Source: Oscillospiraceae bacterium (lineage in GTDB: Bacteria > Bacillota > Clostridia > Oscillospirales > Oscillospiraceae). From it: DNA of 37,514 bases. The stretch lies in NCBI GenBank assembly GCA_015067975.1, contig SVLK01000016.1, positions 1-37,514 on the forward strand, read 5' to 3'. Below, piece by piece: positions 2 to 17,844 of the stretch. The stretch's first letter is position 1. Each line of letters begins with the position of its first letter. A model generated the notes under the pieces. That model did no database searches and was not told the origin of the DNA. It worked only from the letters and a program-made list of their open reading frames with translations. A program made the translations under genes and the position numbers.

Positions 2-790
2 TTACTTCATGCCGCGCTTGACCATCTCGGTCACAGCGAAGCTGGCCACGTCGTCACCGTACTTACCGGCGCCGAAGCCGGCATCATAGCCCAGCTCCTT
101 AGCCAGCTCGTGGGTGATACGGGGACCACCGCAGACCACCACGAACTTGTCGCGCAGGCCCTCGGCCTCCAGCAGTTCGATCAGGTTGGTCAGGTTCTGG
201 ATGTGGACATCCTTCTGGGTAACGGTCTGGGAGACCAGCAGCACGTCAGCCTTCAGCTCCAGTGCCTTCTGGATGAACTCCTCGTTGGGGACCTGAGAAC
301 CCAGGTTGTAGGCCTCGATCATCTCGTAGCGCTCCACGCCGTAGTGACCGGCGAAGCCCTTACGGTTCATGATAGCATCGATACCGACGGTATGAGCGTC
401 CGTACCGGTGGAGGCACCGACCATGACGACCTTACGGCCGATGTTCTCACGGATGTAGTCGTTGGTCTCTTCCATGCCCATCACGTCAGACTCAACGGTG
501 ATGACGTGGATGTCCTCATAGTTGACGCTGTGCACACAGCTGCCGTACACCACGTAGAAGGTAAACTCCTTGTCCAGAGCGGTGTGGTAAGCCACGTTGG
601 GCTCTTCCAGACCCATCTTCTTGGCGATCTGACGGGCAGCTTCTTCGCCGCGCTCGTCATCCTTGACGGGCAGGGTGAAGCTGGTCTGCACCTTACCGTC
701 GTTCATGGTGTCGCCATAGGGCTTCAGACGGGTCAGGTCCAGCGTGGTATCGAAATCGATTTTGTGAGTGTTATACAGTCCGCTGCTCAT
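2..790 (-). CDS. kamE: Lysine 5,6-aminomutase beta subunit
   Basis: This is the B12-binding subunit of the PLP- and adenosylcobalamin-dependent mutase that moves the terminal amino group of beta-lysine from C6 to C5, giving 3,5-diaminohexanoate. The 262-residue protein has the cobalamin-binding GTDAHTVG motif with His133 as the expected lower axial cobalt ligand, and Lys144 (NRKG), which forms the PLP Schiff base in the characterised Clostridium enzyme; both residue numbers match that family exactly. The N-terminal 100 residues form the dimerisation part and the C-terminal half is a Rossmann-like B12 domain. Its ATG overlaps the kamD stop by four bases (ATGA), so translation is probably coupled. 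It is the last gene of the operon inside the window, and the stop codon lies at the window edge. Confidence 0.96.
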   Translation of the reverse strand: MSSGLYNTHKIDFDTTLDLTRLKPYGDTMNDGKVQTSFTLPVKDDERGEEAARQIAKKMGLEEPNVAYHTALDKEFTFYVVYGSCVHSVNYEDIHVITVESDVMGMEETNDYIRENIGRKVVMVGASTGTDAHTVGIDAIMNRKGFAGHYGVERYEMIEAYNLGSQVPNEEFIQKALELKADVLLVSQTVTQKDVHIQNLTNLIELLEAEGLRDKFVVVCGGPRITHELAKELGYDAGFGAGKYGDDVASFAVTEMVKRGMK

Positions 791-2349
791 TCTGCTGCCA
801 CCTTACCTTTCATTTCCTCAATGAAGGGATTGAAATGCTTTTCATCCTTCACCACGACGCCTGCCAGGCCCTTGCCGCCGTCCTTAGGACGCTTAACATC
901 AGCGAAGATACCCTTCTCGATGGTGGTGAACAGACCCAGCTTCTCAATCTCGACCAGCAGGTCGGTAGCCTTGGTCAGAACCTCATTGGCGCGGTTGCGG
1001 ATGATGCCGTTCTCCTTGTAGATCAGCTCGCCGCCCAGATCCTTCATGGTACGGAAGATGTACTGAGCGTTCTCGATAGCCAGAGCACGGTCAGACAGGA
1101 AAGGCGTGTGGATCGCTTCGGTCATCATGCCCAGCAGCTGCAGCTTCTGGCCGGTCAGGATGCAGACCATATTGAACAGGGCATCCTGGATGTGGCCGCG
1201 GAAGATGTTACCGGTCATGAACTTCGTGGGAGGCATGTACTTCAGAGGAGCCTTGGGGAAGATCTCGCGGGCCATCTGAGCCTGTGCCAGTTCCATGACG
1301 AAAGCGTTCTCCACATCGGGATCCATCTCAAATGCGTGGCCCAGACCCATCTGCTCCTCGCGCATGCCTGCGCTCTTAGCGAAGGCTTCGTTCAGGAACT
1401 GGGAAGCCAGAACAGTGTGAGCGGAAGTGACGGCATCGTCGGTGGTCAGATAGTTATCCTCACCGGTGTTGATGATGACGCCGGTATAGCCGTTGATCAC
1501 GCGGGAGAAGTACTGGTCAACGATGGTACGCTGCATGTTGATATCGCGGAACAGGATGCCGTACAGAGCGTCGTTCAGCATCACGTCCAGACGCTCCAGA
1601 GCGCCCATGGCAGCGATTTCGGGCATGCACAGACCGGAGCAGTAGTTGCACAGACGGATGTAGCGCTTCTGCTCACGACCCACTTCGTCCAGAGCTTCAC
1701 GCATCAGGCGGAAGTTCTCCTGGGTGGCGTAGGTACCGCCGAAGCCCTCGGTGGTTGCACCGTAAGGCACATAGTCCAGCAGGGACTGACCGGTGGTACG
1801 GATCACGGCGATGATGTCGGCACCCTGCTTGGCGCCGGCCTTGGCCTGAACGATATCCTCATAGATATTGCCGGTAGCCACGATGATGTACAGATAGGGG
1901 CCTTCCTTGTCGCCGAACTCATTCAAGAATGCGTTGCGGTCAGCAACGTTCTTGTTGATACGAGCCAGAGTGGCATCCACATAAGGCTTCACGGCAGCGC
2001 GGATCTCAGCGTCAGCGTGAGCGGGAACCTTGCTCAGGTCCAGCTCGCCGGCAGCGATCTTCTCAGCCACACCCTGAGGATCCAGACCGGTTTCCAGCAT
2101 GGCGTTACCCAGATTCCAGGCAGCGCCCATGGGCAGCAGGGAATTTTCCACCAGATGATCCACCACCACGTTGGGCATAGGAACATCCATCTCATTCACA
2201 CCGTCGATGCCCAGCAGGCGGCAGACGGCGCGCTCCACGGTAACCGTGGTATGCTGGTCAATGAAAGCCTGGGTGTCAGCTGCCACACGGGCGGCGGACG
2301 CACGGGCCTGGTTGACCAGTTCCAGATTCAAACCGAGTTTGCTTTCCAT
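787..2349 (-). CDS. kamD: Lysine 5,6-aminomutase alpha subunit
   Basis: This is the large catalytic subunit of lysine 5,6-aminomutase. It forms the TIM barrel that binds PLP and substrate and faces the cobalamin carried by KamE. The 520-residue length is normal for the family. The sequence is continuous with no frameshift and contains the long conserved central block of KamD proteins (for example RLCNYCSGLCMPEIA near residue 240 and KYMPPTKFMTGNIFRG near 375). The start at 2349 is preceded by a GAGG-type ribosome binding site, and the gene lies 20 bp after kamA and overlaps kamE by 4 bp. The assignment rests on overall family resemblance and on its neighbours, all of which belong to the same pathway. 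Confidence 0.96.
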   Translation of the reverse strand: MESKLGLNLELVNQARASAARVAADTQAFIDQHTTVTVERAVCRLLGIDGVNEMDVPMPNVVVDHLVENSLLPMGAAWNLGNAMLETGLDPQGVAEKIAAGELDLSKVPAHADAEIRAAVKPYVDATLARINKNVADRNAFLNEFGDKEGPYLYIIVATGNIYEDIVQAKAGAKQGADIIAVIRTTGQSLLDYVPYGATTEGFGGTYATQENFRLMREALDEVGREQKRYIRLCNYCSGLCMPEIAAMGALERLDVMLNDALYGILFRDINMQRTIVDQYFSRVINGYTGVIINTGEDNYLTTDDAVTSAHTVLASQFLNEAFAKSAGMREEQMGLGHAFEMDPDVENAFVMELAQAQMAREIFPKAPLKYMPPTKFMTGNIFRGHIQDALFNMVCILTGQKLQLLGMMTEAIHTPFLSDRALAIENAQYIFRTMKDLGGELIYKENGIIRNRANEVLTKATDLLVEIEKLGLFTTIEKGIFADVKRPKDGGKGLAGVVVKDEKHFNPFIEEMKGKVAAE

Positions 2350-2369: not shown

Positions 2370-3617
2370 TTACTTCACGTGACGCTCGTTACGCAGCAGC
2401 TTGGTGGGCTCCAGATAGCGCTGAGGAGTGCCCTGAGCAACCCAAGCAACACCGGTCTTCTCCCAGGTCTTCTTGCCGGTGCAGACATCGCACTTGCAGT
2501 TCTGGACATAGTGCTCGGGCTCGGTGTAAGAGGTGATGACACCCTCGAAGTTACGCAGGATAACCTTGCGAGGAGTCTGGGAAATCAGATAGTTGGGCAT
2601 GACAGGAGTCTTGCCGCCGCCGCCGGGAGCGTCGACCACGAAGGTGGGGATGCAGTAGCCGGAAGTATGGCCGCGCAGAGCTTCCATGATCTCGATGCCC
2701 TTGGACACGGGAGTACGGAAGTGGCTCAGACCCAGAGAAGGATCGCAGGCATAGATGTAGTAGGGGCGGACACGCATCTTGACCAGACCGTGAACCAGCT
2801 CCATCATGACGTGGCTGCAGTCATTGACGCCGGCCAGCAGCACGCTCTGGTTGCCCAGGGGGATACCGGCATCAGTCAGCATAGCGCAGGCCTTGGCGGC
2901 TTCGGGAGAGAACTCCTTGGGGGTGTTGAAGTGGGTGTTCAGCCACACGGGATGATACTTCTTCAGCATAGCGCACAGCTCGGGAGTGATACGCTGGGGG
3001 CACACAACGGGAGTACGGGAACCCAGACGGACGATCTCCACGTGAGGAATGGCGCGGACGCGGGAGATGATGTACTCCAGATTCTCGTCGGAGACCATCA
3101 GGGAGTCGCCGCCGGACAGCAGAACATCGCGGACCTCGGGGTGAGCAGCCACGTAATCGATGCACTTGTCGATCTGAGCCATGGGCACTTCGCAGTCATT
3201 CTGACCGGCGAAACGACGACGGGTGCAGTGACGGCAGTACATAGAGCACTGGTCGGTGATCAGCAGCAGCACGCGGTCGGGATAACGATGGGTCAGGCCG
3301 GGGACGGGAGAGTCGGTGTCCTCGTGCAGAGGATCGGCGTCCTCATAGTCAGCGTGGAACAGCTCAGCCTCGGTGGGGATAGCCATCTTGCGGATGGGAT
3401 CAAAGGGATCATCCAGATCGATCAGGGACAGATAGTAAGGAGTGATAGCCATGCGCAGGATGCCCAGGGTCTTGGCAGCGCTGGACTCTTCCTCGGGGGT
3501 CAGGGTCATGTACTTCTTCAGATCTTCAACCGTCTCAGCGCGGTTTTCCACCTGCCAATGCCAGTCATTCCACAGCTGCTCGGGGACGTCAGCGAACAGA
3601 CCATTGCGAGTTACCAT
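2370..3617 (-). CDS. kamA: Lysine 2,3-aminomutase (radical SAM)
   Basis: This enzyme catalyses the first step of lysine fermentation, moving the alpha amino group of L-lysine to C3 to make beta-lysine, using SAM, a 4Fe-4S cluster and PLP. The 415-residue protein has the radical-SAM motif CSMYCRHC (Cys124, Cys128, Cys131), followed by the TRRR stretch typical of this enzyme. It also has PGGGGKTP, whose lysine is the PLP lysine, and a C-terminal cysteine group (CKCDVCTG) of the zinc-binding type. Length and order are normal for the clostridial enzyme. The AAGGAG site before 3617 supports this start. The gene follows kdd after a gap holding a hairpin and precedes kamD, so it is expressed from the riboswitch-controlled operon. 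Confidence 0.97.
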   Translation of the reverse strand: MVTRNGLFADVPEQLWNDWHWQVENRAETVEDLKKYMTLTPEEESSAAKTLGILRMAITPYYLSLIDLDDPFDPIRKMAIPTEAELFHADYEDADPLHEDTDSPVPGLTHRYPDRVLLLITDQCSMYCRHCTRRRFAGQNDCEVPMAQIDKCIDYVAAHPEVRDVLLSGGDSLMVSDENLEYIISRVRAIPHVEIVRLGSRTPVVCPQRITPELCAMLKKYHPVWLNTHFNTPKEFSPEAAKACAMLTDAGIPLGNQSVLLAGVNDCSHVMMELVHGLVKMRVRPYYIYACDPSLGLSHFRTPVSKGIEIMEALRGHTSGYCIPTFVVDAPGGGGKTPVMPNYLISQTPRKVILRNFEGVITSYTEPEHYVQNCKCDVCTGKKTWEKTGVAWVAQGTPQRYLEPTKLLRNERHVK

Positions 3618-3711: not shown

Positions 3712-4764
3712 TTAGCAGTACTTCTCGTCGAACAGCTTGCGCAGCTTGGCATTCTCGCGCAGCACGTCCAGAGTGATGTTGGCGTGGTTCTTGGTGTAGC
3801 CGTTACCAACGATCATCTCCACGTCCTTACCGATACCCTCGGCGCCCAGAGCAGCCTTGGTGAAGGAAGTAGCCATGGAGAAGAAGTAAACCTTACCGTC
3901 ATCGCGGACGGGCAGGATGGCGGACATCTCGCAGGACTCGATGTTCACGCAGCAGATGGACAGGTCATACTCCTTGCCGCCGGTGACAGCCAGAGCAGCT
4001 TCCATAACCTCAACGGGCTTGGTGCAGTCGGCGACGATCACGTCGGTGTACACGCCCAGCTCCATCAGATCGGCAACCTGCTTGGGGTTACGGACGACGC
4101 CGACAACCTTACCGTTGGGGCCGACCTTCTTCATAGCTTCCCAACCGCACAGAACGCCGGACTTGCCGTTGGCGCCCAGGATCAGGACGTTGTCGCCTTC
4201 GTGGGGCAGCTTGCGGGCCTGGGCAGGAGCACCGGCCACGTCCAGAGCGGCCAGGGCCAGAGGCTCGGACATATCCTCGGGCATCTTGGCATACAGAGCG
4301 GACTCGAACAGGATGGCCTTACCAACGATGTCAACGCGGTCGATATCCTTGTGGATAGCCAGGATCTTCTCGATCTTCAGGGGGGTCATGGACAGGGAGA
4401 CCAGGGAGACGATCTTGTCGCCAACCTTCAGGTCAAAGCCGGGCTTGGCCAGCAGGTCCTCACCGATGTGAGCAACAACGCCCTTGAACATACCGCCGGA
4501 ACCGGTCACGGGGTTCTGCTGCTTGCCGCGCTCAGCGACAATACCCATGATCATCTCGCCGATCTTCTGCTCATCGCCGCCGCAAGCCTCTTCGATCTGG
4601 GTGAAGGAAGCGGAGTCAATGTTCAGAGAGGTGACGTCGCAGACGATCTCGTTGGAGTAGACCTTGGACATATCGTTGTCGATCTTCCAAGCAGCCTGGG
4701 TCAGAACGCCCTGGGGTTCGATAACGCGATGAATACCGTACTTGTTGCCTTTCAGTTCAGCCAT
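3712..4764 (-). CDS. kdd: L-erythro-3,5-diaminohexanoate dehydrogenase
   Basis: This NAD-dependent enzyme oxidatively deaminates 3,5-diaminohexanoate to 3-keto-5-aminohexanoate. The 350-residue protein begins with the family-typical stretch MAELKGNKYGIHRVIEP. It has a dinucleotide-binding segment around residues 190-215 (VLILGANGKSGVLCGWEA) in a medium-chain-dehydrogenase-like C-terminal Rossmann domain. It sits between kce and kamA, its usual position in lysine-fermentation clusters. The start at 4764 has an AGGAGG site about 8 bases upstream. Substrate assignment comes from family and context; no separate catalytic motif was checked. Confidence 0.95.
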   Translation of the reverse strand: MAELKGNKYGIHRVIEPQGVLTQAAWKIDNDMSKVYSNEIVCDVTSLNIDSASFTQIEEACGGDEQKIGEMIMGIVAERGKQQNPVTGSGGMFKGVVAHIGEDLLAKPGFDLKVGDKIVSLVSLSMTPLKIEKILAIHKDIDRVDIVGKAILFESALYAKMPEDMSEPLALAALDVAGAPAQARKLPHEGDNVLILGANGKSGVLCGWEAMKKVGPNGKVVGVVRNPKQVADLMELGVYTDVIVADCTKPVEVMEAALAVTGGKEYDLSICCVNIESCEMSAILPVRDDGKVYFFSMATSFTKAALGAEGIGKDVEMIVGNGYTKNHANITLDVLRENAKLRKLFDEKYC

Positions 4765-4814: not shown

Positions 4815-5636
4815 TTACTTCTTCAGGCCCAGGATTTCACGGGCCTCAGCGGGGGTAGCGATCTCGCGGCCCAGCAGCTTAGCGAAGGCCTTGACCTTCT
4901 CCACCAGTTCGCCGTTGGACTTGGCCTTCACGCCGCGCTCCAGATAGATGTTGTCCTCGAAACCAACGCGGACGTGACCACCCATGATGATACCGGTAGC
5001 GACCATGGGCCATGCGCCGCGGCCAACGCCGGTGACAGTCCAAGTGGAGCCAGCGGGAATCTTGTTGACCAGGAAGGCCAGATTCTCGGGGGTAGCGGGA
5101 GTGCAGCCATTGACGCCCAGCACGAAGTTGAACTGCATGGGAGCGCCGGGAACCAGACCCTTATTGGCCATGTTGACCACGGTATCCAGATGACCGATCT
5201 CAAAGCACTCATACTCGGGCTTGATGTTGTTCTCCAGCATACGCTTACCGAAAGCGCGCATGGTGGGCATGTCGTTGACGAAGATGTCATCACCGAAGTT
5301 GCAGGTACCGCAGTCCAGAGTAGCCATCTCGGGGAACAGCTCGGTGGGCTGCAGACGCTCTTCGGGAGTCATGCCGGTGGCACCGCCGGTGGAGGGGATC
5401 AGAATAGCATCGGGGCAAGCGGCCTGGATGGCGGGCAGGATCTCAGCGAAACGCTCGCGATCCTGAGTGGGCTTGCCATCGTCAGTACGGACGTGAACAT
5501 GGATGACAGCAGCGCCGGCATCATAGGCAGACTTGGCCTCGCGGACCATTTCTTCCTTGGTGTAGGGTACAGCAGCGTTGTGCTCCTTAGTAACTTCAGC
5601 ACCGCAGATCGCAGCAGTAATAATCAGCTTTTCCAT
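4815..5636 (-). CDS. kce: 3-keto-5-aminohexanoate cleavage enzyme
   Basis: This zinc enzyme of the BKACE family exchanges acyl groups between 3-keto-5-aminohexanoate and acetyl-CoA, yielding acetoacetate and 3-aminobutyryl-CoA. The 273-residue protein carries the zinc ligands His46 and His48 (VIHVHVRTDDG) and the C-terminal VRVGFED segment, whose Glu227, Asp228 and Arg223 match the third zinc ligand and the catalytic acid/arginine of the characterised enzyme at a constant offset of three residues. Length is normal. The start at 5636 has a GAGGGAG ribosome binding site. It lies 16 bp after kal and about 50 bp before kdd in the same operon. Confidence 0.95.
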   Translation of the reverse strand: MEKLIITAAICGAEVTKEHNAAVPYTKEEMVREAKSAYDAGAAVIHVHVRTDDGKPTQDRERFAEILPAIQAACPDAILIPSTGGATGMTPEERLQPTELFPEMATLDCGTCNFGDDIFVNDMPTMRAFGKRMLENNIKPEYECFEIGHLDTVVNMANKGLVPGAPMQFNFVLGVNGCTPATPENLAFLVNKIPAGSTWTVTGVGRGAWPMVATGIIMGGHVRVGFEDNIYLERGVKAKSNGELVEKVKAFAKLLGREIATPAEAREILGLKK

Positions 5637-5652: not shown

Positions 5653-6051
5653 TTACTTCTTGGTGGTACGCTGGCAATCCTTGGGGGTCACGCAGGTACC
5701 GTGAGCGCGGCAGACCACGATGGGCTCGGCCAAAACTTCGGCGGCAGAAGCGCTGATGTCGGGGCGGGAAACGATCACCTTGCGGGCTTCGAAATTCATG
5801 ACGCGGGAGGTGTTGCCGATCTTTTCCATCTCGCCGTAAGCCTCGATATAGTCGCCGGCATACACAGGAGCCAGGAACTCGATCTTGTCGTAAGCGCAGA
5901 ACAGACCTTCGTCGCCATCGCACAGGATCAGCAGCTCGGTGGCAACATCACCAAACAGGTGCACCATGTGGGCGCCATCCACCAGATTGCCGCCGTAGTG
6001 GGCATCCTTGGCGCTCATTCTCAGACGCAGGGTAGAAGTGTACTTTTCCAT
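5653..6051 (-). CDS. kal: 3-aminobutyryl-CoA ammonia-lyase
   Basis: Kal removes ammonia from 3-aminobutyryl-CoA to give crotonyl-CoA, which enters the butyrate pathway. It is a 132-residue single hotdog-fold protein, the usual size for Kal, with the family-like [20 protein letters not shown] region around residues 20-40 (helix and substrate-binding loop). The frame stays open further upstream to 6207, but the ATG at 6051 is chosen because a perfect AGGAGGAG site lies 7 bases before it and upstream sequence is the riboswitch terminator. It is the first gene of the operon, so it directly receives the riboswitch decision. Confidence 0.93.
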
Positions 6052-6144
6052 GATAAAACTCCTCCTAAAAATAATTTTTCTTTTTCTTTCGGGGCTGCTC
6101 ACAGAATTCCGCCCGTTTTTCCTCAGCACTGCCTTTTCTGCACG

Positions 6145-6186
6145 AAAAAAAGCGCTATCGGTCAAGTGTTGTTGACCAATAGCGCT
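6145..6186 (-). terminator. Intrinsic terminator in the kal leader (riboswitch expression platform)
   Basis: A 15-bp inverted repeat with one mismatch (arms 6172-6186 and 6151-6165, 6-nt loop) is followed on the minus strand by a run of Ts (plus-strand A run 6145-6151). It ends 93 bases before the kal start. Its 5' arm contains the six bases (6177-6182) that also form the 3' strand of riboswitch stem P1, so the two structures exclude each other. Confidence 0.9.
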
Positions 6187-6351
6187 CCATGTCTTACAAG
6201 AAAACATGACAGTATCGCCGCTTACACGACGAAACCAAGGACAAAAGCGCAGGCCGACTCCGTCCTTTCGGCGAAAAACCCCTTCCTAATCTGCTTTTTC
6301 AAGTGCCTGAACTCATTGCAGACCAGTACCCTGTTTTTCGCACCTCTATTG
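6177..6351 (-). promoter_or_regulatory. Lysine riboswitch (L box) upstream of the lysine-fermentation operon
   Basis: Read on the minus strand, the leader holds the conserved L-box blocks in order: AGAGGTGCGAA (5' side of P1/P2), AAGGGG then CGCCGAAAGG, GTCGGCCTGCG, ACTGTCATG and CATGGAGCGCTAT (3' side of P1). These match the order and spacing of the Bacillus subtilis lysC aptamer as I remember it. P1 closes by pairing 6346-6351 with 6177-6182 (CAATAG with CTATTG). Because the P1 3' strand lies inside the 5' arm of the terminator, lysine binding should block the terminator and turn the operon on. The sequence motifs are seen directly; the ON polarity is inferred from the geometry. Confidence 0.9.
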
Positions 6352-6376
6352 ACATTATACGGAATTCACTGGTTAA

Positions 6377-6404
6377 ATTATACGACTTTTGTGGCTTTTG
6401 TCAA
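6377..6404 (-). promoter_or_regulatory. Promoter of the kal-kce-kdd-kamADE operon
   Basis: The minus strand shows a consensus sigma-A promoter: TTGACA (6399-6404), a 16-bp spacer and TATAAT (6377-6382). The predicted start near 6369 leaves about 18 bases before the riboswitch and a leader of about 320 nt before kal. Confidence 0.9.
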
Positions 6405-6483
6405 GTGACTTTATGAGAAAATAGACAACAATTTTTTATCTGTTTGATAAACTTTTATCAGTCTCTGTCTTTTCTCTTTCTTA

Positions 6484-7944
6484 TCAATAAGACTGTTCGA
6501 TTTCCGCCAAAATCTCCTGTTTCAGTGACAGCATGCGGCAGATATTCAGCGCATCGCGGGGGCAGTCAGACCGGCCTTCTACGCGATAAAGACCATAGTT
6601 CATGTGGCGGGCGATGACCTGAATACCGTCATCACCGGTCACGGCCAGTTCGCGCCGGATCTGCTCAGGATCTACGTCACGCAGTCCGATGATCTGATAG
6701 TGAGCGTTGGCATTTTCCGCTACCTTGTCGTAGTGGGTCGTCAGCAGAGAAATGGCATCCACCTTGTTGAGGTAGCGCGTCACAGCCTGCACAATTACCG
6801 CACCCTCGTCGGGGTTGGTACCGCGGGCAAACTCATCCAGCAGAAACAGAGAGTATCCCTCTTCCACCTCTTCCAGTGCTTTCTGAAAATGCACGATTTC
6901 CGAGCCAAAACCGCTCAGACCGCTTTGGATAGACTGCAAATCGTCAAACAGCATGTTGACACTGTGGAACAGAGGCATTCTGGCGCTTTTGGCGCACACC
7001 AAAAAACCGGCCTGCAGCAGCAGCACGTTCAGTGCCACCGTCTTCATAGCTACAGATTTACCGCCCATGTTGGCACCGGTAATCACCGTAGCGCCGCGGT
7101 TCAGCTGAATGGACACCGGCACAAAGGAGCGCCCCTTATCCTGCAGCAGGTCGCACAGTTCCGGATTGACCATGTCCACCAGCTCCAGCTCCCCATCGGT
7201 GATCTCGGGACGCACACCGCCGTAACGCACAGCAAAGCGTGCTTTCTGGATGATAAAGTCCAGCCGGCCTACCGTATCAGCGTCGGTCAGCAGGTCATCT
7301 GCCAAAGGTGCCAGCTGTGCCCCCATATCCTTGCGGACTTTCATCTCTTCACTGTCCTCTTCGGCGCAAATGCGGGTGCGCTTGGTACGCAGTTCGTCCT
7401 TCTCTGCGTCGCTGGCAGCGTGGTAGAGCTGCTCTTCCACCTGCTTTTTGGCCTGACGGATCTCACGCAGTTTCTGCGTTGCACTGTCGGGGATGTAGAA
7501 ACCGCGGCTGCGGGTACGCTCAGGATCCAGTATTGCCAGTGCAGAGGAAGGATCGTGGAACGCCAGATCCTCGAAATGAGTCACCTCATCCACCTGCTGC
7601 AGCAGAGGGATCAGCGTTTCCAGACGCTGCAGATAGTTCTTCAGTTCGAACAGCTCCACATGGTCGGGGCACTCGCCGTTCTTAATACGGCGCAGTGTAC
7701 CGCGGATCTCCTTCATCTGGCAAAACAGCATGCACATTTTATCGTACACGCTCTTGAGCTCCTCCGCAGCTTTGGCAGCCTGCTCCACGTTGTAAAGTTC
7801 CGTTTCCAGCTCGGCGCGCTCTTCGGGACTGTAAAAGCGCAGGCGGCGGATTTTCTCAATACCAAAGGGGCTGCAGCCATGCAGCGACTCCAGCGCATAT
7901 TGCAAGCCGATCTTTTCTCTCTCTTCAAAACGAATGGCGATCAT
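6484..7944 (-). CDS. kamC: MutS-like ATPase, predicted lysine 5,6-aminomutase reactivase subunit KamC
   Basis: This 486-residue protein has the MutS/DNA-repair ABC-type ATPase domain in its C-terminal half: Walker A GANMGGKS (residues 290-297), Walker B SLFLLDEFARGTN (around 366-377) and a conserved LTTHYD H-loop. The N-terminal 280 residues are helical and lack the MutS mismatch-recognition domain. MutS-like proteins of this size travel with the aminomutase genes of lysine and ornithine fermenters and are annotated as KamC, thought to restore the B12 mutase after cofactor damage. It overlaps kamB by four bases (ATGA) and ends 80 bp before the operon promoter. The reactivase role is known from family annotation and context, not shown by the sequence itself. 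Confidence 0.85.
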   Translation of the reverse strand: MIAIRFEEREKIGLQYALESLHGCSPFGIEKIRRLRFYSPEERAELETELYNVEQAAKAAEELKSVYDKMCMLFCQMKEIRGTLRRIKNGECPDHVELFELKNYLQRLETLIPLLQQVDEVTHFEDLAFHDPSSALAILDPERTRSRGFYIPDSATQKLREIRQAKKQVEEQLYHAASDAEKDELRTKRTRICAEEDSEEMKVRKDMGAQLAPLADDLLTDADTVGRLDFIIQKARFAVRYGGVRPEITDGELELVDMVNPELCDLLQDKGRSFVPVSIQLNRGATVITGANMGGKSVAMKTVALNVLLLQAGFLVCAKSARMPLFHSVNMLFDDLQSIQSGLSGFGSEIVHFQKALEEVEEGYSLFLLDEFARGTNPDEGAVIVQAVTRYLNKVDAISLLTTHYDKVAENANAHYQIIGLRDVDPEQIRRELAVTGDDGIQVIARHMNYGLYRVEGRSDCPRDALNICRMLSLKQEILAEIEQSY

Positions 7945-8873
7945 GCCAGTTCCTCCTTTACATTGATCACAGGCACATCCACGGCCTCGCTCATCTTATG
8001 CTTGAACTCATCCTTGTCAAACTTCCAACCGTAGGCAGATACAGGATTGATGGTAACGCACAGCGTGCGCGCCGCCTCTACCGCCTCCAGCTTCACCTGC
8101 CGCTGCTGCAGTTTGTCCAACGTGTCGGGCTTAAGCAGCACCTTGCTGGGATCGCGCACCACCAAACGGCCGTTTCTCAGCACGCCGCTGCGCAGCAGGG
8201 GTACCACCATGGTGTCGGTCAGCGCGCCATTGATCAGCGCTTCGCCGTGCTCTTTCAGGCAGGCCGCCAGACCCTCCTCCGGCTCGGGAGGCAGCGTCTC
8301 CGCCTTGGGCAGGTTCATGATGCGGTAGATGTTCAACGTATCCTCGATCACTTTGTCCATATTCATGTGATAGCTGGCACCGGTGCATAGAATAATGCCC
8401 TCAGCCACAGCGCGGGCACCCAGCGATTTGCGGCCCAACGCACCGTCGATGATGGATTGGTGTGCACCCATTTCAAAAAACAGGCGGGACACGTCCTTGA
8501 GCTGCGTGGTGATGGACGGGCCGGCGATCTGCACATAGCCGGCGCTGCGAGCGCGCATGATCACCACCTCGCCCAACGGCGTGGGGATACCGGTGGTGGC
8601 CATGATTTCTTTGGTCACATCGCCCAGACGCAGCATATCCTTAGCCGTAGCGACCAGCGTTCCTTCAGGTACAAAGATGCTGGGTTTTTCTGTACCGGTG
8701 ACCACGTCAGTGGACTCACCGTCACGTCCAATGGAGGTCAACCCCAGGATCCGGTCATTGCGGCTGTTGGCCAACAGCCAGTTGAGCACCGTGGTTTTTC
8801 CCGCGTTTTTGCACATGCCCACGATGGACATGGTCTGTACGCTTGTCAGTGCTTTTTCCAGTTCCGGCGTCAT
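7941..8873 (-). CDS. kamB: Predicted lysine 5,6-aminomutase reactivase subunit KamB
   Basis: This 310-residue protein is coupled to kamC by a 4-bp overlap. It has a P-loop-like N-terminus, GMCKNAGKTT (residues 19-28), in which the first glycine is one residue further from GKT than the standard Walker A spacing. A mid-protein block (residues 130-155, DGALGRKSLGARAVAEG) looks like an actin/MutL-type or NTPase core element, but I cannot place it firmly. The start at 8873 is chosen over a GTG at 8903 because a GAGAGGAG site precedes it. Family annotation and location make it the partner of KamC in maintaining the B12 aminomutase; nucleotide binding is inference. Confidence 0.78.
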   Translation of the reverse strand: MTPELEKALTSVQTMSIVGMCKNAGKTTVLNWLLANSRNDRILGLTSIGRDGESTDVVTGTEKPSIFVPEGTLVATAKDMLRLGDVTKEIMATTGIPTPLGEVVIMRARSAGYVQIAGPSITTQLKDVSRLFFEMGAHQSIIDGALGRKSLGARAVAEGIILCTGASYHMNMDKVIEDTLNIYRIMNLPKAETLPPEPEEGLAACLKEHGEALINGALTDTMVVPLLRSGVLRNGRLVVRDPSKVLLKPDTLDKLQQRQVKLEAVEAARTLCVTINPVSAYGWKFDKDEFKHKMSEAVDVPVINVKEELA

Positions 8874-8913
8874 AAAGCACACTCCTCTCGCAAATTTTAT
8901 CACATTGTATTTT

Positions 8914-14111: not shown

Positions 14112-14360
14112 CGTTGAGAAAAAAGGCGTTGAATGGGAAGTACAGCAAGGAAGCGTCCGCCAGAGAGGATCGGTCAGCGGCTGAAAGCCGGTCCGGGATC
14201 GTGATGCTGTGTTCGCCCGGGAGCTGCCGCGAGGAAATGCGCGGACGGGTCATCCTCCGTTATGGGGAAACGAGTGCGCAGGGAATGTCCTGCGAATTTG
14301 GGTGGTACCACGGAAGTATGTTGTCCTTTCGTCCCTTTGTTGGGAGGAAAGGGCTTTTTT
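14112..14360 (+). promoter_or_regulatory. T-box riboswitch (Phe) upstream of pheST
   Basis: The leader shows the T-box signature GGTGGTACCACGG at 14301-14313, the CAGAGAG and GGCTGAAAG type elements of stem I at 14161-14189, and a terminator (arms 14325-14335 and 14342-14352 with one mismatch, then six Ts). The codon TTC at 14212-14214, followed by the conserved GAGCTGC stretch, sits where the specifier codon is expected and reads phenylalanine. Uncharged tRNA-Phe should stabilise the antiterminator and allow pheST transcription. The specifier is assigned by position; no full fold was computed. Confidence 0.9.
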
Positions 14361-14407
14361 ATTGTCCAAAACTCCCGAAATACCGAAATAGGAGTGAATG
14401 TATCATC

Positions 14408-15433
14408 ATGAAACAGCAACTGGAGATCATCCGCGCAAGTGCGCTGGAGGCCATTGCCCAGACCACGGCTGCCGAAGAGCTGGAGGCTCTGCGTGTCAAG
14501 TATCTGGGTAAGAAAGGCGAACTGACCGCCGTTTTGAAGCAGATGGGTAAGCTGAGTGCTGAAGAGCGCCCCATCATGGGTCAGATAGCCAACGAAGTGC
14601 GTGCTGCACTGGAATCTGCCATTGACGAGGCCCGCATCCGTCTGGCCGCCGCTGCAATGGAACAGCGTCTGGTAGACGAGGCTTTGGACGTCACCATCCC
14701 CGGCAAGCCCATCCGTATCGGCCACAAGCATCCCATGTACAAGGCGTTGGACGAAATCAAGGACATCTTCGTGGGCATGGGCTTTACCGTACTGGACGGC
14801 CCCGAAGTGGAGCTGGCCACCTACAACTTTGATAAGCTGAACGCAGAAGAGGGTCACCCCTCCCGCGACTGGTCTGATACCTTCTATTTTGACGAGGACA
14901 GCCGCGTAATGCTGCGCTCTCAGACCAGCCCCATGCAGGTGCGCGCCATGGAAACCATGAAGCTGCCCATCCGCATCATCGCCCCCGGCCGCGTCTACCG
15001 TAAGGACGAAGTGGACGCTACCCACTCCCCCATGTTCCATCAGGTGGAAGGCATGGTCATCGACAAGGGCGTGACCATGGCTGACCTGAAAGGTACGCTG
15101 AACGCCGTGATGGAGCAGCTGTTCGGTGAGGGCACTGTCACCCGTTTCCGTCCCCACCACTTCCCCTTCACCGAGCCCAGCTGCGAGATGGACGTACAGT
15201 GCCACAAGTGCGGCGGTAAGGGTTGCCCCACCTGCAAGGGCGAAGGCTGGATCGAAGTGCTGGGCGCCGGCATGGTGCACCCCAAGGTGCTGGAGATGAG
15301 CGGCATTGACAGCGAGGAGTACACCGGTTGGGCATTCGGTATGGGTCTGGAGCGTCTGGCTATGCGCCGGTTCAAGATCGCCGATTTGCGTCTGATTTTC
15401 GAGAACGACGTGCGTTTCCTCGAGCAGTTCTGA
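14408..15433 (+). CDS. pheS: Phenylalanine--tRNA ligase alpha subunit
   Basis: The 341-residue alpha chain of the heterotetrameric PheRS carries the catalytic class II aminoacyl-tRNA synthetase core. Visible elements are the N-terminal coiled-coil region (residues 1-90), motif 2 (SPMQVRAMETMKLPIRIIAPGRVYR), and motif 3 in GWAFGMGLERLAMRR. The short Cys-rich insertion CHKCGGKGCPTCKGEGW before the active-site strand is common in clostridial PheS. The frame is open through the T-box leader, but the ATG at 14408 (MKQQLE) matches the family N-terminus and follows the terminator. It is 17 bp before pheT. Confidence 0.97.
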   Translation: MKQQLEIIRASALEAIAQTTAAEELEALRVKYLGKKGELTAVLKQMGKLSAEERPIMGQIANEVRAALESAIDEARIRLAAAAMEQRLVDEALDVTIPGKPIRIGHKHPMYKALDEIKDIFVGMGFTVLDGPEVELATYNFDKLNAEEGHPSRDWSDTFYFDEDSRVMLRSQTSPMQVRAMETMKLPIRIIAPGRVYRKDEVDATHSPMFHQVEGMVIDKGVTMADLKGTLNAVMEQLFGEGTVTRFRPHHFPFTEPSCEMDVQCHKCGGKGCPTCKGEGWIEVLGAGMVHPKVLEMSGIDSEEYTGWAFGMGLERLAMRRFKIADLRLIFENDVRFLEQF

Positions 15434-15450: not shown

Positions 15451-17844
15451 ATGAATTTAAGCAGAAAATGGCTCAATGAGTTTGTAAATGTAACAGCTGA
15501 TGACAGAACCTTCGCAGAGGCAATGACTCTGTCCGGCTCCAAGGTGGAAGTCACCGAAGATATGAGCGAATCCATCGAAAATGTGGTGGTTGGCAAAATC
15601 CTATCTCTGGCTCGCCACGAGAACAGCGACCACATGTGGGTCTGCATGGTGGACGTGGGCGGTGAAGCCCCTGTACAGATCGTCACCGGTGCCCAGAACG
15701 TCAAAGAAGGCGATCTGGTCCCCGTGGCTAAGGACGGCTCTAAGCTGCCCGGCGGCGTGGAGATCCACAGCGGCCAGCTGCGCGGCGTTCTGTCCGACGG
15801 TATGCTCTGTTCTTTCAAGGAGTTGGGTCTGGACCAGCGCGACTTCCCCACCGCTTATGAAAACGGCATCTGGATTCTCAGCGATGATGAGGAACTGACG
15901 GGTCTGGAGATTGGTCAGGACATTTGCTCTGCCGTGGGTCTGGACGACCATGTGGTGGAGTTTGAGATCACCCCCAACCGCCCCGACTGCCTGAGTGTCA
16001 TCGGTCTGGCCCGTGAAGCCAGCGCCACTTTCGACGCTCCCCTGACGCTGCACGAGCCTGTGGTCAAGGCCGGTGCCGATGGCAACCTTTTCGAGCTTCT
16101 GGATGTGGAAACGCCGGACGCCGATCTGGTGCCCCGTTACACCGCCCGTATGGTCCGCAATGTGAAGATTGCCCCCTCCCCCAAGTGGATGCGTGAGCGT
16201 CTGCGCGCTATGGGCGTGCGTCCCATCAACAACATTGTAGATATTACCAACTATGTGATGATGGAATACGGTCAGCCCATGCACGCCTTTGACTACCGTT
16301 ACGTCAACGGCGGCAAAATCATCGTGCGCCGCGCTGCCGACGGCGAAGAGCTGACCACGCTGGACGGCAACATTCGCAAGCTGAATGCCAATCATTTGGT
16401 CATCGCCGACGCCGACCGTGCCGTAGGTCTGGCCGGTATCATGGGCGGTATGAACAGCGAAATCGTGGAAGATACCGTGGACGTGGTGTTCGAGTCTGCC
16501 TGCTTTGACGGCACCTGCATCCGCAAAGGTGCCCTGGCGCTGGGTATGCGTACCGAAGCTTCCGCCAAATTCGAAAAGGGCCTCGATCCCATGAACACTC
16601 TGCCCGCTGTGAACCGCGCCTGCGAACTGGTTGAAATGCTGGGTGCCGGTGAAGTGCTGGACGGTGTCATCGACGTGCTGAACTTCGTACCTCAGCCCAC
16701 CGTGCTGCAGCTGCGCCCCGACAAGGTCAATGCCCTGCTGGGTACCGACGTATCCGTGGAAGAGATGCAGACTATCCTGAAGAAACTGGGCTTCGGCGTA
16801 GACGGCGAAACCATCACAGTTCCATCCTGGCGCGCTGACGTGGTGCATTACTCCGATCTGGCCGAGGAAGTGGCCCGCTTCCACGGCTACAACAACATCC
16901 CCTGCACGCTGGTACGTGGTGAGACCACCCGCGGCGGCTACAATGCCGAGCAGCTGATGGAGCAGCAGCTGGGTGCCATCTGCCGCAGCGTAGGTTATGA
17001 TGAGATCATCACTTATTCTTTCATCTCCCCCACCTATTACGACAAGATCCGTTGGGCCGCCGACGATGCACGCCGCGAGAGTTTCAAGATCCTCAACCCG
17101 CTGGGCGAGGACACCTCCATCATGCGTACCACCTCTCTGCCCTCCATGCTGGAGATCCTCAGCCGCAACTACAATTACCGCAATAAGGAAGTTCGCCTGT
17201 ACGAGATGGCCCGCACCTACGCATTGGGCGGCAAGGATGGCCTCGCTATTGAGCGCAAGGTGCTGACGCTGGGCGCTTTCGGTGATACTGATTTCTTCGC
17301 CATGAAGGGCATGGTGGAAGTGATCCTCGATACCCTGCGCGCCGAGGGTGTCCGCTTCGAAGCCTGCCGCGACAATCCTTCCTATCACCCCGGCCGCTGC
17401 GCCAAGGTGTATGCCGGTGAGATCTGCATCGGTGTCCTGGGCCAGATTCATCCTCTGGTGGCACAGAACTACGATGCTGACACGGAGCTTTACTGCGCTG
17501 AGCTGGCTTTGGAAGCACTGATGGCTGCCGAGGGCGGCGATCCCGTCTATACTCCCCTGCCCAAGTTCCCCGCCGTTACCCGCGATATCGCTGTAGTGTG
17601 CAAGAACGAAGTCACCGTAGGCCAGTTGACCGACTGCATCCGTCGCGGTGCCAAGGGTCTGCTGAAGAACGCCGCTCTGTTCGATATTTATCAGGGTACC
17701 GGTATCCCCGCAGGACATAAGTCCGTGGCCTTCAACCTGACACTGCGTAACGATGAGCGCAGCATCACCGGTGAAGAGGCCGACGAGGATATCCGCAGCA
17801 TCCTTGCTCTGCTGGAGAGCGAGCTGGGCGCCGTTCTGCGCTGA
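15451..17844 (+). CDS. pheT: Phenylalanine--tRNA ligase beta subunit
   Basis: The 797-residue beta chain supplies tRNA binding and editing. Domain order is normal: N-terminal core (NLSRKWLNEFV), EMAP/Myf-type tRNA-binding domain (residues 40-150), B3/B4 editing domain (roughly 200-380), B5 domain (about 405-475), the catalytic-like core, and the C-terminal FDX-ACB anticodon-binding domain (from about 705). AGGAGG precedes the ATG by 8 bases. It is cotranscribed with pheS under the T-box. Confidence 0.97.
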   Translation: MNLSRKWLNEFVNVTADDRTFAEAMTLSGSKVEVTEDMSESIENVVVGKILSLARHENSDHMWVCMVDVGGEAPVQIVTGAQNVKEGDLVPVAKDGSKLPGGVEIHSGQLRGVLSDGMLCSFKELGLDQRDFPTAYENGIWILSDDEELTGLEIGQDICSAVGLDDHVVEFEITPNRPDCLSVIGLAREASATFDAPLTLHEPVVKAGADGNLFELLDVETPDADLVPRYTARMVRNVKIAPSPKWMRERLRAMGVRPINNIVDITNYVMMEYGQPMHAFDYRYVNGGKIIVRRAADGEELTTLDGNIRKLNANHLVIADADRAVGLAGIMGGMNSEIVEDTVDVVFESACFDGTCIRKGALALGMRTEASAKFEKGLDPMNTLPAVNRACELVEMLGAGEVLDGVIDVLNFVPQPTVLQLRPDKVNALLGTDVSVEEMQTILKKLGFGVDGETITVPSWRADVVHYSDLAEEVARFHGYNNIPCTLVRGETTRGGYNAEQLMEQQLGAICRSVGYDEIITYSFISPTYYDKIRWAADDARRESFKILNPLGEDTSIMRTTSLPSMLEILSRNYNYRNKEVRLYEMARTYALGGKDGLAIERKVLTLGAFGDTDFFAMKGMVEVILDTLRAEGVRFEACRDNPSYHPGRCAKVYAGEICIGVLGQIHPLVAQNYDADTELYCAELALEALMAAEGGDPVYTPLPKFPAVTRDIAVVCKNEVTVGQLTDCIRRGAKGLLKNAALFDIYQGTGIPAGHKSVAFNLTLRNDERSITGEEADEDIRSILALLESELGAVLR

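Follow-up and report, generated by a model that had tools for sequence, protein, structure and literature searches.

A lysine riboswitch (L box) encoded on the minus strand between kamC and kal in an Oscillospiraceae contig very probably acts as a transcriptional ON switch that induces the lysine-degradation operon kal-kce-kdd-kamADE, as a member of an L-box sub-lineage marked by the sequence GGUA in loop E of the aptamer. The well-studied lysine riboswitches, those of lysC and lysP, are of the OFF type. ON logic is ascribed to certain lysine riboswitches in the accessible text of PMC2258182, citing Rodionov 2003, and that of PMC5584792 holds the prediction that L boxes of C. sticklandii, F. 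nucleatum and Thermoanaerobacter act as positive regulators of the kal/kce genes that they precede, while 14 double lysine riboswitches are listed in the available part of PMC9481103. As far as these partly accessible sources go, ON polarity, catabolic targets and tandem arrangement were thus each already known, as predictions, and the statement in an earlier note on this DNA, that L boxes before lysine catabolic genes had been predicted, agrees with what is in print (PMC2258182, PMC5584792). In the literature searched, which covered few subscription papers, we found no experimental proof of a natural ON lysine riboswitch and no description of a loop E/L4 signature or of a catabolic sub-lineage.

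Aptamer, promoter and terminator of the riboswitch

The window, i.e. the whole stretch of 37,514 nucleotides that was analysed, contains members of two RNA families at the Rfam gathering threshold, RF00168 and RF00230. The covariance-model search placed the lysine riboswitch aptamer RF00168 at 6172..6356 on the minus strand, as a full-length match (model positions 1-182) of 100 bits against a gathering score of 30 and with an E-value of 1.2e-25, by which the lysine riboswitch assignment of the earlier note is borne out. A second lysine riboswitch in the same genome was considered and rejected, the RF00168 search of this 84% complete genome giving only the copy at 6356-6172. The other RNA family is represented by a T-box leader at 14120-14339 (plus strand; 94.2 bits, barely above the cut-off of 93), which precedes pheS (within 14114-15430) and pheT (15451-17841).

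The aptamer is preceded by a promoter at 6377..6404 (minus strand), composed of a -35 box TTGACA at 6404-6399, a 16-base spacer and a -10 box TATAAT at 6382-6377; its 12 out of 12 sigma-70 matches, which justify calling it a consensus promoter, compare with a scan threshold of 9-of-12 at which shuffled sequences gave 1.0 hit per region (terminator-like sites: 0.9 in shuffles). The promoter was free of mismatches in 21 of 22 genus leaders compared, the window counted and three near-copies among the 25 leaders left out, and had one mismatch in the remaining leader.

Downstream lies an intrinsic terminator at 6145..6187 (minus strand), located by site scanning and folding, with its 5' arm at 6187-6172, loop at 6171-6166, 3' arm at 6165-6150 and U tract at 6151-6145. 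The hairpin comprises 16 pairs and has a folding energy of -25.7 kcal/mol (z -7.2), a value that none of 200 shuffles equalled. According to the RF00168 alignment, the P1 helix is formed by the 5' strand CAAUAG (6346..6351, minus) and the 3' strand CUAUUG (6177..6182, minus), and hairpin folding places the latter strand, 6182-6177, entirely within the terminator 5' arm, as the earlier note had described. Since P1 and terminator share this strand, the two structures are mutually exclusive, which constitutes an ON geometry. The predicted folds agree: a transcript cut at 6172 forms P1, its 5' strand paired with its 3' strand, and in a transcript reaching 6150 the terminator has taken the place of P1.

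Target operon and proposed mechanism

All six genes of the presumed target are on the minus strand and score above their curated NCBIfam cut-offs, in support of the kal-kce-kdd-kamADE annotation given earlier: kal, 3-aminobutyryl-CoA ammonia lyase (5653..6051; NF052388, 189.5 bits, cut-off 160), kce, 3-keto-5-aminohexanoate cleavage enzyme (4815..5636; NF052387, 412 bits, cut-off 382), kdd, 3,5-diaminohexanoate dehydrogenase (3712..4764; NF052381, 252 bits, cut-off 200), kamA, lysine 2,3-aminomutase (2370..3617; TIGR03820, 585.7 bits, cut-off 525.4), kamD, lysine 5,6-aminomutase alpha (787..2349; NF052384, 902 bits, cut-off 600) and kamE, lysine 5,6-aminomutase beta (2..790; NF052385, 406.7 bits, cut-off 280). 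Two further pathway genes, kamC, encoding the 5,6-aminomutase reactivase ATPase (6484..7944, minus; NF052383, 517.7 bits, cut-off 300), and kamB, encoding a reactivase subunit (7941..8903, minus; NF052386, 319 bits, cut-off 210), together occupy 6484-8903 upstream of the riboswitch and its promoter at 6404-6377, which consequently does not serve them. The end of kamC is 80 bp from the promoter and a scan of 5900-6700 found no terminator-like site between the two, so that read-through from kamBC would meet the same switch. As to gene order elsewhere, kamB-kamC is likewise located upstream of the riboswitch in the window's genus, in family f135 and in locus L089, and within the operon in families f64, f169, f225 and f90.

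We infer the ON polarity, lysine binding, effect size and start site of the window's switch from its sequence, and propose the following mechanism. RNA polymerase would start some 15-20 nt before P1, as judged from the -10 box. Without lysine, P1 would be weak and, once the 3' arm at 6165-6150 has been made, the strand 6182-6177 would join the 16-pair terminator, upon which transcription would halt at the U tract. Lysine bound in the five-way junction would hold P1 closed, depriving the terminator of its 5' arm and allowing transcription of the operon. As P1 and terminator share one strand, P1 could prevail only by being stabilised before the 3' arm emerges; the end of P1 and the end of the terminator are only 27 nt apart, for which reason the choice should be kinetic and should require high lysine. 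The Shine-Dalgarno sequence of kal, read as AGGAGGA at 6060..6066 (minus), lies about 80 nt past the terminator, so translational control is not needed. In the glycine and adenine ON switches, according to the accessible text of PMC2258182, the ligand-stabilised structure likewise takes part of the terminator and there is no separate antiterminator; aptamer and ligand differ from those considered here, making this a likeness of mechanism, not of descent.

Collection of kal-linked L boxes

KAL matches above cut-off were present in 23 of 391 class genomes and 78 of 398 phylum genomes, the window's genome being included in both sets. Among 106 genomes picked for a KAL-family match, eight of them on the basis of matches below cut-off, the RF00168 search identified a kal-linked L box in eight, a count that contig ends hiding L boxes may lower. 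These eight genomes belong to four families, namely f64 (G428, G154), f135 (G475, G516), f169 (G692, G817) and f225 (G748, G789), and their L boxes precede lysine-fermentation operons of differing gene order; in both f225 genomes tandem L boxes precede kdd, and in locus L223 there is 3.9 kb between L box and kal. We rejected the proposition that all kal operons carry an L box, as an upstream L box on the same contig was present in only 8 of the 106 genomes. For the best 80 named kal loci, an L box was located upstream of kal in nine, none of which is titled Bacteroidales, and a motif scan of these loci recovered eight of the nine at 0-1 mismatches and the ninth, L127, at 3 mismatches. The other 71 had no L box in the fetched stretch when searched with R1, a covariance model built from 19 kal-linked aptamers; they include many Bacteroidales MAGs, whose Kal shares about 80% identity with that of the window.

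The kal-linked set used for the comparisons below contains 40 L boxes, of which 25 come from the window's genus and 5 more accompany a Kal 82-89% identical to the window's, so that the counts do not represent independent events. For the comparison of terminators L013, whose leader is an identical copy, and L008, with only 44 nt of sequence downstream, were removed, near-identical leaders such as L012, L018 and L034 were retained, and L127 was excluded from the counts of 39, 40 and 66. An L box was taken as non-kal if its locus had no tblastn match of the window's genes (L001-L049) or if it lay away from the KAL match, the genes downstream being read by eye from the ORF start.

Several loci deserve separate description. 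In L225 (3313-3757) and L226 (14293-14704), a lysine-fermentation operon that begins with kdd is preceded by tandem lysine riboswitches, both of which have an ON-type hairpin of their own, and a third hairpin in L225 resembles the 3' tail of a lost third aptamer. Tandem riboswitches of the AGUA type precede an aspartokinase-like ORF (by eye) in L229 (G410:C18; loci L186, L187). The kal-linked L box L222 (14368-14542) scores only 64.8 bits with RF00168 and its P1 pairs in a shifted register, with the overlapping terminator intact; it is possibly a decaying switch.

A sequence signature in loop E and L4

In comparison with the Rfam consensus, the aptamer of the window has one position deleted in loop E of P2 and carries GGUA (6327..6330, minus) in place of the AGUA of ordinary L boxes. 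The earlier note had seen all conserved L-box blocks in order; this holds for the pocket motifs, whereas the departure in P2 loop E had been overlooked. The aptamer exceeds the RF00168 gathering score and has the conserved junction motifs, and lacks the AGUA sarcin-ricin loop E, which is usual rather than defining: AGUA was also absent from 8 of 54 other L boxes in the same check and its absence is no bar to membership of RF00168. Moreover, the opposite strand of the P2 internal loop reads GAAGGGG (6279..6285, minus; alignment) instead of the GAAAGG of most ordinary L boxes, and a scan of L4 loops identified a GUAA loop of the GNRA type (6222..6225, minus) where most ordinary L boxes have an NAANA pentaloop.

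These features recur in the relatives. GGUA is present in loop E of all 40 kal-linked L boxes against none of the 54 others, which have AGUA (46), another NGUA (3) or neither (5), and most kal-linked L boxes depart from GAAAGG on the opposite strand (GAAGG-like). With L4 loops chosen by a simple pairing score, the NAANA pentaloop was found in 1 of 40 kal-linked L boxes against 44 of 54 others, and a GNRA tetraloop in 25 of 40, all of them from the window's own genus or its closest relatives, and in none of the 54 others. Three genomes (G028, G154, G692) combine GGUA L boxes before the fermentation operon with AGUA L boxes at other sites. P4 was missed by RNAalifold on the aptamers.

According to the available text of PMC3764141, L4 is joined to P2 in the T. 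maritima structure by the triple A127-A23-G69 and this contact is crucial for organising the binding site; that of PMC6614840 states that the P2-L4 contact is assisted by the loop E motif, and that of PMC2258182 that the sarcin-ricin loop E of the lysine aptamer is more highly conserved than its K-turn. Since loop E and L4 touch in the T. maritima structure, it is two contacting parts that differ together. Such a change could in principle have turned the aptamer towards another ligand, e.g. beta-lysine, D-lysine or a pathway amine, while leaving an ON switch, and the alteration of loop E in 40 of 40 and of L4 in 39 of 40 kal-linked L boxes, in a contact called crucial for binding-site organisation (PMC3764141, accessible part), would fit this. 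We consider it improbable, since the motifs of the junction pocket are kept, GAGGNGC, GCCGA, UGG and UG[UC]C each in 40 of 40 kal-linked L boxes and the 3'-end RGNRCU-type motif in 39 of 40, all five checked as loose sequence patterns, and since the altered parts form long-range contacts and not the junction, as far as the accessible portions of PMC3764141 and PMC6614840 tell. With the pocket motifs kept, lysine would remain the most likely ligand, and we interpret the kal-linked L boxes as a sub-lineage of ON switches in which the P2-L4 contact was remodelled. The features proposed to delimit it, GGUA, a non-NAANA L4, terminator overlap and a lysine-degradation target, are all present in the window.

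Conservation within the genus

A lysine riboswitch was found in 26 of the 31 congeneric genomes searched and is located between kamC and kal in 24 of them. This bears on whether the hairpin could be a constitutive terminator of kamBC, or the remnant of a decayed switch, that the aptamer no longer controls. The terminator does outcompete P1 in equilibrium folding, kamC ends just 80 bp before the promoter, and 5900-6700 holds no other terminator-like site. Nevertheless, in 24 of the 31 genomes searched both aptamer and overlap recur between kamC and kal, which led us to reject an unlinked kamBC end, and in the genus leaders, where the P1 strand is constant, the 3' arm of the terminator varies by changes that mostly preserve its pairing with that strand (by eye), all of which makes loss of control by the aptamer very improbable.

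Overlap of P1 and terminator in kal-linked L boxes

The ON polarity proposed in the earlier note obtains comparative support from the terminators of other L boxes. Overlap was scored when the 5' arm of the best terminator covers at least 4 of the 6 bases of the P1 3' strand, and was found in 36 of the 39 distinct kal-linked L boxes; among 53 others, 50 of which had a terminator by the rule used, it occurred once (Fisher test p 7e-21, the rows being related and so lacking independence). By family, which is the fairer measure, the overlap occurs in f1, f135, f169 and f225, then in f90 and f97, and not in f64. In fourteen representatives, covering five different sequences of the shared strand, the terminator pairs at least 5 of the 6 shared bases. 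P1 itself is imperfect in some relatives, with 4 of 6 pairs in L221, L225a, L225b and L226a and 5 of 6 in L226b.

The single overlapping non-kal case, L037, appears by eye to be an antiterminator hairpin mistaken for a terminator. The kal-linked exceptions are L225b, where the direct hairpin was the second choice, and the f64 L boxes L178 and L183, whose terminator is separate from P1. In L224 (3195-3310) the overlapping hairpin is followed by another that looks like a terminator. By eye, L183 resembles the leader of L224 with the 3' arm of the first terminator eroded, and may represent an intermediate between ON platforms with one hairpin and those with several.

In an energy test, 38 of 39 kal-linked L boxes behaved as ON-like, L183 being OFF-like, though probably scored on a hairpin other than its terminator, and 50 other L boxes were OFF-like in 30 cases, undecided in 14 and ON-like in 6, several of them with wrong hairpins picked as judged by eye. 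A check of competing hairpins, which is a weak test, was ON-like for L178 and showed no difference for L183; on five OFF-type L boxes it came out clearly as expected for L048 and L022, slightly so for L042 and L161, and opposite for L040. An ordinary OFF riboswitch before catabolic genes, on which lysine would promote termination, has on its side the OFF type of the well-studied lysC and lysP L boxes and the 30 of 50 other L boxes that are OFF-like, but we rejected this simple reading as highly implausible, because the P1 3' strand is itself in the terminator arm, an overlap common to 36 of 39 kal-linked L boxes, no antiterminator apart from P1 is visible, and such control would make little metabolic sense.

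L boxes found after definition of the signature

The R1 model was run on the 398 phylum and 391 class genomes. Its bit scores alone fail to separate the classes, reaching 110.7 for AGUA L boxes as compared to 110.4 for one kal-linked L box and 78.7 for L127. In 49 further loci (22 + 27) from among the best-scoring matches, presumed to be non-kal, loop E was AGUA in 45, lacked NGUA in one, was mis-anchored in one (L271, TGUA) and was GGUA in two, L259 (G267) and L263 (G325). Both GGUA L boxes, which overlap directly with their terminators, are from class genomes without a KAL match. Downstream of L259 are a gene for a HemL-like aminotransferase, kce (459 bits), genes for two CoA-transferase subunits, kdd, kamA, kamB, kamC, kamD and kamE. 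L263 precedes an aminotransferase 83% identical to that of L259, with nearby genes otherwise unlike the operon, and lysine 5,6-aminomutase is encoded elsewhere in its genome. The two aminotransferases match glutamate-1-semialdehyde aminomutase models below the cut-offs. In a variant of lysine fermentation, as described in the accessible text of PMC3149608, Kal is replaced by Kat, a HemL-like 3-aminobutyryl-CoA aminotransferase encoded at the kal locus; judging by position and family, the aminotransferases of L259 and L263 are probably Kat.

A third GGUA L box, that of L127 (titled Lachnospiraceae), scores 57.9 bits and lies 70 nt before kal; its hairpin includes 5 of 6 P1 3' bases, the stretch having an energy of -16 kcal/mol (z -2.3). 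All three GGUA L boxes found later therefore precede lysine-fermentation genes and keep the overlap, of which only L259 and L263 test the signature against the target, as L127 was found next to kal.

Descent of the kal-linked aptamers

In a tree of 66 aptamers, comprising 21 of the 40 kal-linked ones and 45 others hand-picked for spread, with the P1 and loop E columns removed, all 21 kal-linked aptamers and L244 (non-kal, AGUA) were united on one branch with support 100/99, on short data and with the bootstrap not settled. The AU test does not reject a kal-linked clade without L244 (p 0.454), which is not proof of monophyly. A single origin of the kal-linked L boxes is likely rather than proven.

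Conclusions

With the OFF-type RF00168 riboswitches of biosynthesis and transport genes, the switch in the window shares the aptamer family, the pocket motifs and transcription control by an intrinsic terminator; it differs from them in its inverted platform, with the P1 3' strand in the terminator arm, in loop E (GGUA, not AGUA), in an L4 that is not NAANA and in its degradation target. It is a further member beside the catabolic L boxes of PMC5584792 (C. sticklandii kal-kce, F. nucleatum kal, Thermoanaerobacter), with which it has the kind of target and the predicted polarity in common, and for which we found neither a signature nor a single lineage described in the accessible literature. 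Taken alone, the window's switch would thus be a further case of the predicted catabolic ON L boxes; viewed alongside its relatives, it suggests that a structural variant of the lysine aptamer accompanies catabolic ON control. More tentatively, and with somewhat more doubt than conviction, we suggest that the catabolic ON L boxes may form one old lineage apart from the OFF L boxes of the same genomes, in which loop E and L4 changed together, giving an affinity, on-rate or ligand choice fit for a fast kinetic ON switch that answers surplus lysine only, and that GGUA may serve to find lysine-degradation operons, including those with kat for kal.

The locus and its relatives provide a clean comparative set, in which ligand class is constant, single genomes hold ON-type as well as ordinary versions, and the two parts that differ belong to a tertiary contact that is reported to be important for switching; whether polarity and target go along with a re-tuned aptamer thereby becomes testable. 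The GGUA sub-lineage precedes lysine-fermentation operons in several bacterial families. The host of the window's switch comes from a gut/rumen group, and the layout implies that its lysine-fermentation operon would be read only when lysine is plentiful. As the products of lysine fermentation are butyrate, acetate and ammonia (PMC3149608, accessible part), the switch is relevant to the timing of their production by gut and rumen bacteria.
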